Positions 10,619 to 16,585 of a stretch of 23,041 nt of DNA are shown here, piece after piece. Position numbers and translations under genes: made by a program. Each line of letters starts with the position of its first letter. Positions within the stretch are counted from its first letter, which is position 1. The stretch covers positions 1-23,041 of the IMG/VR virus record IMGVR_UViG_3300021165_003825, one strand, 5' to 3'. Below the pieces are notes generated by a model. It was not told the DNA's origin. It was given only the letters and a program-made list of their open reading frames with translations, and searched no databases. Origin of the DNA: a virus.

Positions 10619-10653
10619 TAAATTCTCGGCCAAATCAGCCGAGAATTTTTTTT
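10619..10653 (+). terminator. Intrinsic terminator, 11-bp stem
   Basis: AATTCTCGGC (10621-10630) pairs perfectly with GCCGAGAATT (10638-10647) around the loop CAAATCA, extended by A10620-T10648, and is followed by a run of T to 10653. An A-rich stretch precedes the stem, so weaker function on the other strand is possible. It ends the 8771-10583 unit and isolates the SSB gene. Confidence 0.9.
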
Positions 10654-10706
10654 TATAAATTAATCTTGTAAAACAAAAAATATACTGTTAACTATAAACT
10701 TACGAA

Positions 10707-10772
10707 TTGGGGCACATTATGTTTGTGTCTCGAATACGACAAATGGGGTCACATATGTTTGTGGCTCGAATA
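10707..10772 (+). promoter_or_regulatory. Tandem RNA hairpins in the SSB leader
   Basis: Two related 28-base units (10709-10736 and 10745-10772, period 36) each fold into an 8-bp stem. Unit 1 pairs GGGGCACA (10709-10716) with TGTGTCTC (10724-10731) over loop TTATGTT, with two further pairs outside. Unit 2 pairs GGGTCACA (10746-10753) with TGTGGCTC (10760-10767) over loop TATGTT. Where the arms differ, pairing is kept (G-U in unit 1 against U-G in unit 2), and both have TATGTT in the loop and CGAATA after the stem. T4 gp32 is known to bind a structured site in its own leader and repress translation, so autogenous control is the natural inference. A protein operator on DNA is the alternative. 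Confidence 0.6.
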
Positions 10773-10797
10773 AACCTTTTTACATGACGGAGATATT

Positions 10798-11793
10798 ATG
10801 TCAATTGATTTTGAACCACTCGATCTTAATTCCATTCAAAAAGAAGTTAAGCGAATTAACTCAGGCGAGGGCGCTGAAAACGAGTTCATGCAACAGTATG
10901 TCAGAATGCCTGAGCGTGACGGATTTGTCTTGCTAAGATTCTTGCCCCGCAAGAAAGGACAGCAATTTTTTTGTGCTACTAGGATTCACACACTAAAAAA
11001 TCCAGCCACTGGAAAGATGACGCAGTATCATTGCCCTAGGGATCTCTCAAAAGATGCCAATGGCAAGGAAGCATGGCGTGGCGACTGCATAATCTGCAGC
11101 CTTTATCATAGTTTGTGGCAGAAGAGCGAAAGGCTCAATGGCAAAGACCAAGAGAACATGCAAAATCAAGCCCGTGAACTTAAGCCATTGGAAAGGTACT
11201 ACTACAATGTTATTGTTCGATCTGAGAGCGATGGCAAGGGTGGTACACTTAAAAATGTTGGCCCAAAGATTTACAGCTGTGGCAAGCAAGTTCATTCCAA
11301 GATCATGCTCGCAATCAATGGTGATCAAGTCACCGGCGAGAAAGAGCTTGGGGATATCACAAGGCCTGATACTGGCTGTGATTTCCGTCTTGTCAAAAAA
11401 GTGGTGAAAAGTGGCGCAAGGGAATACCCAAACTATGACAATAGTAGATTTGAGGACCCAAGTGTTGCTGGCACTCAAGAAGAGATGGCAAAATGGTTTG
11501 GAAACTTGATTGATCTTGCGATGCTCAGGAAGCTGAAAAGTGCTGATGAACTTAAGCATGCATTGCGTGTTCACTGCGGAATGGTTGTCGAAGAAGACAA
11601 CAATGACCTAAATGAGTTTTATGGTCAAGCCGTTAGAGAGCCTGCAAAGTCTGCTGGATCAACATTAGCTGCTGGAGCCGACAAGATCCGTGAAGAGGAC
11701 ATTGCACCCAAGCAGTCGCCATCTAAGACCAAGCAAGTTGAAGAGGATTCTATGGCAGATGATGACTTCCTCAAAGAACTCGGAGCCATCTAA
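10798..11793 (+). CDS. Single-stranded DNA-binding protein, T4 gp32 type
   Basis: The 331-residue protein coats single-stranded DNA at the fork and interacts with the recombinase. The zinc-binding region of gp32 proteins is present: His78-Cys79, then Cys97 and Cys100 in GDCIIC. Basic and aromatic residues flank it (VLLRFLPRKKGQQFF, PLERYYYNVIV). A polar linker from about 275 to 315 leads to an acidic tail (EEDSMADDDFLKELGAI), the usual site for partner contacts. The start has a GGAG site 6 bases upstream. Its leader carries two related hairpins and it is followed by its own terminator, so expression is separately controlled. Confidence 0.92.
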   Translation: MSIDFEPLDLNSIQKEVKRINSGEGAENEFMQQYVRMPERDGFVLLRFLPRKKGQQFFCATRIHTLKNPATGKMTQYHCPRDLSKDANGKEAWRGDCIICSLYHSLWQKSERLNGKDQENMQNQARELKPLERYYYNVIVRSESDGKGGTLKNVGPKIYSCGKQVHSKIMLAINGDQVTGEKELGDITRPDTGCDFRLVKKVVKSGAREYPNYDNSRFEDPSVAGTQEEMAKWFGNLIDLAMLRKLKSADELKHALRVHCGMVVEEDNNDLNEFYGQAVREPAKSAGSTLAAGADKIREEDIAPKQSPSKTKQVEEDSMADDDFLKELGAI

Positions 11794-11866: not shown

Positions 11867-11903
11867 TTGATGATAAAATCTCTTGTTGGGATTTTATCAT
11901 CAA
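11867..11903. promoter_or_regulatory. Perfect 14-bp inverted repeat before the UvsX gene
   Basis: TTGATGATAAAATC (11867-11880) is exactly complementary to GATTTTATCATCAA (11890-11903) with a 9-base loop. It is A+T-rich and is not followed by a T run, so it is not a standard terminator. It lies about 50 bases before the recombinase ATG, between that gene and the SSB terminator. It may be an operator, an mRNA-stabilising hairpin or a processing site. Confidence 0.6.
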
Positions 11904-16073: not shown

Positions 16074-16135
16074 TGTTTAAAAACACAGATGTCAATGCTA
16101 GATACATCATAAATTCAACTTAAAGTTGGAGTTTG

Positions 16136-16585
16136 ATGCATATCTGGTCATGTTCAAAATGTAAGACGCACGAAGCATCCTTGAGGTACAATTCTGGCAA
16201 AATGAAGCTTTGCAAAGATTGCCAGAAATACCAAAACATGAAAGCCAATTGCTCTGTTGGCAGAAAAAGAACCAAGCCGCCTGAACTTTCCATCACAGAA
16301 TCTGATTTCAAGTCATGGCTTCAATTGACGCCAAGAAATTGTCATTATTGTGGCATTCAAGAGATTGATCTTAGAAGCGTTTCCATAAAGTCTTCAATTG
16401 GTCTACATGTTGAGTCGCTTGGCATCGACAGGTTAGATAACACTCTTGATTACCAGCTTGGAAATATTGTTTTGTGTTGTTATGCTTGCAACAAAGTAAA
16501 AAGTAATTTTTTTACTCAGTCTGAAATGTTACGGATTGGCAAATCTATAGCGGAAATCTGGCGCTCCAGAAGATTCGAATCTTAG
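16136..16585 (+). CDS. HNH endonuclease with N-terminal zinc ribbon
   Basis: The 149-residue protein joins a CxxC...CxxC zinc ribbon (CSKCKTH...LCKDCQKY, residues 6-29) to an HNH-type nuclease core. The core has CHYCGI, then LGIDRLDNTLDYQLGNIV and CCYACNKVKSNF, a form in which DRxDN replaces the first histidine and four Cys bind structural zinc. Such free-standing enzymes in phages are often homing endonucleases, but repair or packaging roles exist. The ATG at 16136 follows GGAG; the TTG at 16133 is rejected. It stands alone between a small unknown gene and the Hel308-like helicase, with 62 and 54 bases of A+T-rich flanks, as an inserted gene would. Confidence 0.85.
   Translation: MHIWSCSKCKTHEASLRYNSGKMKLCKDCQKYQNMKANCSVGRKRTKPPELSITESDFKSWLQLTPRNCHYCGIQEIDLRSVSIKSSIGLHVESLGIDRLDNTLDYQLGNIVLCCYACNKVKSNFFTQSEMLRIGKSIAEIWRSRRFES

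Follow-up and report, generated by a model that had tools for sequence, protein, structure and literature searches.

The window, meaning the whole stretch of 23,041 nucleotides that was analyzed (a 23-kb IMG/VR fragment), carries a gene for a single-stranded DNA-binding protein (SSB) of 331 amino acids, with a gene for a UvsX-like recombinase as the next one after it. The SSB product matches the Pfam gp32 family PF08804 above the cut-off (E value of 8.8e-13, residues 42 to 243) and the PHROG SSB families (E value of ∼1e-18), and a profile of its relatives matches the T4 and RB69 gp32 structures 2a1k, 2atq, 8gme, and 1gpc, with E values of 2.5e-7 to 8.7e-7. These matches support the description of the gene as gp32-like, which was given in an earlier note on this DNA. 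Residues H64, H78, C79, C97, and C100 are invariant in 7/7 aligned homologues and form a putative Cys/His zinc site; the acidic C terminus is likewise present in all of them. The contigs that carry SSB homologues reach 430 kb in length, and at least some of these therefore come from large, uncultured phages. A strong AT-rich hairpin (GATGATAAAATC...GATTTTATCATC, positions 11870 to 11903) lies 3′ of the SSB gene, ahead of the UvsX-like gene.

The features of the locus, in order along the strand, are as follows:

10620 to 10656, plus strand: bidirectional intrinsic-terminator-like hairpin with a T-run (11-pair stem, then T9), parting the SSB unit from the upstream gene
10655 to 10668, plus strand: conserved 14-mer ATAAATTAATCTTG, essentially confined to the SSB promoter
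10666 to 10671, plus strand: putative −35-like hexamer TTGTAA, with 18-nt spacing to the −10
10690 to 10695, plus strand: putative −10-like hexamer AACTAT, in a layout shared with relatives
10707 to 10733, plus strand: hairpin 1, an 8-bp core plus two outer pairs, loop UUAUGUU
10734 to 10745, plus strand: single-stranded linker from hairpin 1 to hairpin 2, almost identical in the 89% relative (L145)
10746 to 10767, plus strand: hairpin 2, 8 bp, loop UAUGUU
10768 to 10788, plus strand: mostly single-stranded A/U- and pyrimidine-rich stretch (GAAUAAACCUUUUUACAUGAC) from hairpin 2 to the ribosome-binding site
10789 to 10792, plus strand: Shine-Dalgarno sequence GGAG, read directly from the sequence
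10798 to 11793, plus strand: gene for the gp32-like SSB, 331 amino acids, assigned by Pfam, PHROG, and structure profiles

Direct reading of the sequence bears out the two 8-bp hairpins with a shared loop core and CGAATA tail that had been reported at 10707 to 10772. The core stem of unit 1 pairs GGGGCACA (10709 to 10716) with TGTGTCTC (10724 to 10731) around the loop TTATGTT (10717 to 10723) and is lengthened to 10 pairs by the outer pairs U10707-A10733 and U10708-G10732. The stem of unit 2 pairs GGGTCACA (10746 to 10753) with TGTGGCTC (10760 to 10767) around the loop TATGTT (10754 to 10759). The CGAATA tail lies at 10731 to 10736 and at 10767 to 10772. The units are direct repeats with a start-to-start spacing of 36 nt and 78% identity over 32 nt. 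Folded singly, unit 1 reaches −12.2 kcal/mol (z score of −5.3) and unit 2 reaches −11.5 kcal/mol (z score of −4.7), and folding of the whole 111-nt leader gives a z score of −2.2. Of 600 dinucleotide shuffles of the 99-nt leader, 11 equaled the observed leader in the stability of the best hairpin, and none (0/600) equaled it in that of the second.

The earlier note had further stated that bases which differ between the units still pair (G-U against U-G). This is true for one pair only, as the sole difference among the eight aligned pairs is G10712-U10728 in unit 1 versus U10749-G10764 in unit 2. A covariation argument drawn from the two units of the window alone is therefore thin, and relatives are needed to judge the claim of selection on the RNA structure.

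The hairpins in related SSB leaders

About 60 distinct SSB leaders were gathered from three homology scans. In the SSB tree, the window forms one clade with L145, L148, L147, L261, L268, L149, L159, and L150 (100/100 support). The leader of L145, whose SSB is 89% identical to that of the window, contains two hairpins with UCUGUU loops. The L150 lineage (58 to 59% identity; five contigs sharing one leader) contains three hairpins 39 nt apart, each with a terminal CUCGAA; a further scan with the L150 protein as the query returned no new variants of this leader. Each of the seven homologous units from the window, L145, and L150 lineages folds singly, with z scores of −3.3 to −6.1.

Alignment of related leaders for covariation had been proposed as a check on the earlier reading of selection on RNA structure, and its outcome supports that reading: the hairpins are conserved in the relatives, and the seven units keep their pairing (96.8% of aligned cells pair), with changes on both sides in 6 of 9 pairs. 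The covariation score of the seven units was reached by 0 of 500 shuffles, a statistic that draws its units from three lineages only and its structure from those same units, with an effect size that is still large. The covariation is lost when partner columns are slid by one to three positions. Among transition-type mismatches in the seven stems, closing pair excluded, there are nine G-U and zero A-C, which favors an RNA of the mRNA (coding) strand over a DNA palindrome. UGRG/CUCGAA is conserved as the base of the stem, and the loop core U(A/C)UGUU or CGUU recurs in most units. On this comparative evidence, the twin hairpins are a real RNA structure.

The remaining members of the clade (L148, L147, L261, L268, L149, and L159) have one hairpin each, at the same leader position and with a stem sequence unrelated to that of the window units. 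Between L261 and L268, the stem shows a compensatory G-C to A-U change. Among the leaders collected, the tandem form of this unit is seen only in the window/L145 lineage (two hairpins) and the L150 lineage (three), and the more widely shared feature is a 5′ hairpin followed by a weakly structured stretch. Outside the clade, many SSB leaders begin with a hairpin of very varied form, and those of L203, L215, and L225 have almost no structure.

Some of these more distant leaders have distinctive arrangements of their own. Those of L153, L154, L160, L164, and L208 contain one long hairpin with two GACGYTRACGA copies, nearly invariant in sequence, unlike the freely varying stems of the window clade; folding of the L153-group alignment gave no covariation, its sequences being too similar. 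The distant homologues L142 and L123 (LR756511, a 595-kb phage; 35 to 38% identity) have twin hairpins, GAAACTAA/TTAGTTTC and then TGAGTT/AACTCA, directly 3′ of a strong TTGACA-17-TATAAC promoter. The close leaders of L188 and L190 differ by an extra hairpin, TGTGTC/GACACA, present in one of them, a recent gain or loss.

Bulk folding energy does not set these leaders apart. The 90-nt SSB leaders were not significantly different from the other intergenic leaders at their own loci (P = 0.10), nor did promoter-anchored folding separate SSB leaders from controls (P = 0.15, n = 9). Hence, no universal rule of structured SSB leaders is claimed, and energy is not used as evidence. The bias of G-T over A-C is likewise a property of the seven homologous units only, and in the best stems across the family it is not significant (46 versus 38; P = 0.22).

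With a covariance model of the unit, every confident copy (E value below 1e-4) fell in an SSB leader of the window, L145, or L150 lineage. Its other matches, from contigs searched over their full length (up to 189 kb), were weak, and among single hairpins it matched that of the L261 SSB leader weakly (E value of 0.21). In these searches, the hairpin unit is thus tied to the SSB gene. An Rfam scan of the window leader and its relatives gave only chance matches below threshold, with no family at its curated gathering score, and the plasmid collection that was searched gave no match. Pattern scans were of less use: the loop core is a common pattern, found in at least 120 stretches of viral contigs and hence uninformative, and the linker patterns returned only the known relatives and one chance coding match (L125).

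Promoter region and single-stranded stretch

The terminator-like hairpin at 10620 to 10656 is also visible upstream of the L145 leader. The 14-mer ATAAATTAATCTTG that follows is exact at the SSB locus in 8 of 9 records; a second exact copy is present in none of them, and one record has one extra copy with 1 mismatch. The version in the L150 lineage has one extra A. The 14-mer includes the start of the −35-like TTG, with −10-like hexamers located 17 to 18 nt further on, and it may represent a transcription factor binding site or an UP/−35 element.

Promoters of the clade were placed from the aligned −35 and −10 elements, and the layout in relatives is TTGTAA-18-AACTAT in L145 and TTGCAA-18-TACTAT in L147. 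Automatic promoter calls for the window, L148, L149, and L150, among others, fell on wrong sites and were set aside, and a strong-promoter search carried out as a control gave mostly chance matches and was unusable. The aligned elements predict a transcription start near 10702, approximately 5 nt before hairpin 1. With the predicted promoter upstream of them, the hairpins should lie near the 5′ end of the mRNA. The earlier note had named a start downstream of the hairpins as an outcome that would speak against its reading; the conserved predicted promoter points instead to a start upstream. Many of the relatives that fall outside this clade, L215, L208, and L198 among them, have an SSB promoter with the overlapping arrangement TAAAGT-N3-TTG...CGATA...TATAAC, which is rare elsewhere in the contigs and possibly represents two overlapping promoters.

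Between hairpin 2 and the ribosome-binding site, the stretch at 10768 to 10788 may be the counterpart of the unstructured A+U-rich region of T4. In the window clade, pairing in the near leader is lowest here, with an unpaired fraction of 0.61 to 0.74 at positions −30 to −11. Its A+T content equals that of controls, and in the window it is a diverged form (ACCTTTTTAC) of words that recur in the family. Within positions −60 to −12, ACTTT occurs in 32 of 53 SSB leaders versus 18 of 165 other leaders of the same loci (P = 3e-12) and TTAAC in 22 of 53 versus 8 of 165, counts that were drawn from related sequences with no phylogenetic correction, so that P values overstate independence. The point of this result is that ACTTT and TTAAC appear to be conserved while the hairpins change. 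The leader repeat AACTTTTGTGT is present in five copies in L149 versus two in L159, in leaders that are otherwise near-identical; this array constitutes a stretch of variable length before the ribosome site.

Possible functions of the hairpin array

The autoregulation of gp32 is a textbook case. In T4, gp32 represses its own translation by binding to a 5′ pseudoknot, from which it is thought to spread cooperatively over the ribosome-binding site via an unstructured A+U-rich region of UUAA(A) repeats (PMC3014915). The gene 32 operators of T4 and RB69 have diverged in sequence, yet either is repressed by either gp32 (PMC535899), which fits with a structure that is kept here while the sequence drifts. 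The leaders described here resemble these operators in that they precede a gene of the same protein family, in having structured RNA on the 5′ side of a weakly paired stretch that may correspond to the repeat-bearing region of T4 and leads into the ribosome-binding site, and in the retention of structure as sequence diverges (PMC535899, PMC3014915). They differ in having two or three tandem hairpins at the presumed 5′ end, whereas T4 has one pseudoknot and UUAA(A) repeats, to which the ACTTT and TTAAC words are a parallel and in whose place they stand. A search of the window, L145, and L150 leaders for pseudoknots revealed no complementarity of unpaired segments below −3 kcal/mol. The analogy with the T4 gp32 leader drawn in the earlier note thus holds for the layout, but no pseudoknot is predicted here.

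Two other known elements invite comparison. The operator of the T4/RB69 replication gene 43 is also a simple hairpin, placed some 40 nt before the start codon, together with ribosome-site sequence (PMC3014915); it differs in its gene and ligand and in being a single hairpin with a conserved UAAC loop, whereas the units here are tandem and their loop is partly conserved. The STAXI motif (Rfam RF01728), the only described case of its kind that was found, similarly places two or three structured repeats close to SSB genes (PMC2864571), but its repeats are pseudoknots, often with UUCG loops, and the window units are simple hairpins. Identity with STAXI was rejected, as RF01728 had no match at an E value of ≤10 in the window, L145, L152, L149, and L262 records. 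In the literature that was searched for tandem-hairpin SSB leaders, nothing beyond T4/RB69 and STAXI turned up. Structured leaders of gp32-type SSB genes are known as a kind, and the tandem-hairpin form, whose function is presumed, is new.

The preferred reading, by analogy with T4 gp32, is autogenous translational control of the SSB, to which we assign a probability of roughly 0.5. We infer in it the transcription start, the SSB as the ligand, and translation as the controlled step. Transcription from the SSB-specific promoter near 10702 would yield an mRNA with the hairpin array at its start; next would come ∼20 nucleotides, most of them single-stranded, and then the Shine-Dalgarno sequence and the AUG. 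SSB in excess of the available single-stranded DNA would bind its own leader, with the hairpins acting as a boundary or docking platform and cooperative binding spreading in the 3′ direction across the single-stranded stretch to the ribosome-binding site; once this site is covered, translation would be turned off. The presence of two or three hairpins may provide extra binding sites or protection of the 5′ end. Several observations count against autogenous control: the hairpins leave the ribosome-binding site unsequestered, no pseudoknot is predicted, SSB leaders do not stand out in folding energy, those of L203, L215, and L225 are almost unstructured, and the enrichment of leader words comes from related sequences. 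A more specific proposal is put forward tentatively, at somewhat less than even odds: the leaders may constitute a previously undescribed gp32-type SSB operator, in which one to three covarying 5′-terminal hairpins, with a copy number that varies by lineage, precede a single-stranded stretch for loading that contains short repeats, the whole taking the place of the T4 pseudoknot in a group of uncultured phages.

It is still not clear how an SSB that has little preference for sequence locates its own messenger, and a review pointed to autocontrol across a wider range of phages as a subject that needs study (PMC3014915, PMC535899). Leaders with interchangeable hairpins, from one to three, and variable single-stranded repeats offer a natural test set for SSB recognition. 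The preservation of the hairpin shape, and not of its sequence, before the SSB gene suggests a switch that sets the amount of replication protein made.

A stable stem near the 5′ end of the transcript can stabilize bacterial and phage mRNAs, as in the ompA type. The hairpins share this feature, and the main rival to autogenous control is that they are 5′-terminal mRNA stabilizers, in which a stem a few nucleotides from the triphosphate end slows decay of the RppH/RNase E type, a messenger required in large amounts lasts longer, and no specific protein is needed. We regard this rival as serious but less likely; the putative start ∼5 nt before hairpin 1, the free change of stem sequence with stability kept, and the variation in hairpin number from one to three all agree with it. 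However, one hairpin should suffice for stabilization, and an array at 35 to 39 nt with a shared base and CGAA flanks suggests more. To our knowledge, ompA-type stem-loops do not form arrays in which a repeated unit covaries and belongs to a single gene; here, the unit is absent from other genes of the same contigs. Stabilization would also leave the shared leader words unexplained, although it agrees with gene 32 mRNA being the most stable mRNA of T4 (PMC3014915).

Two further readings are less likely than both autogenous control and stabilization. It is improbable that the hairpins are read not by the SSB but by another factor, such as an RNA-binding protein of phage or host origin or a small molecule. 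The conserved stem base UGRG/CUCGAA and the recurrent loop core do resemble recognition features, but none of the other genes in the contigs has the unit, which leaves no sign of a regulon; moreover, no RegA homologue was found in the nine records (the contigs may be incomplete), and the hairpins match no Rfam family. Very improbable is a DNA element, that is, imperfect palindromes for a dimeric transcription factor or replication initiation whose RNA folding is incidental, since against the closeness of these near-palindromes to the promoter and the lack of a significant G-T bias in wider-family stems (46 versus 38; P = 0.22) stand the 9:0 excess of G-T over A-C in the seven homologous units (closing pair excluded), stem sequences that vary freely, unlike a protein-read palindrome, and a position downstream of the predicted start, on the coding strand.

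Elsewhere in the window, the open reading frame at 983 to 2314 encodes a family A DNA polymerase that matches the profile over its C-terminal part alone (PHROG positions 955 to 1236 of 1445) and is possibly part of a split polymerase. The open reading frame at 16133 to 16585 has CxxC and CxxCN motifs and resembles an HNH endonuclease by eye only.
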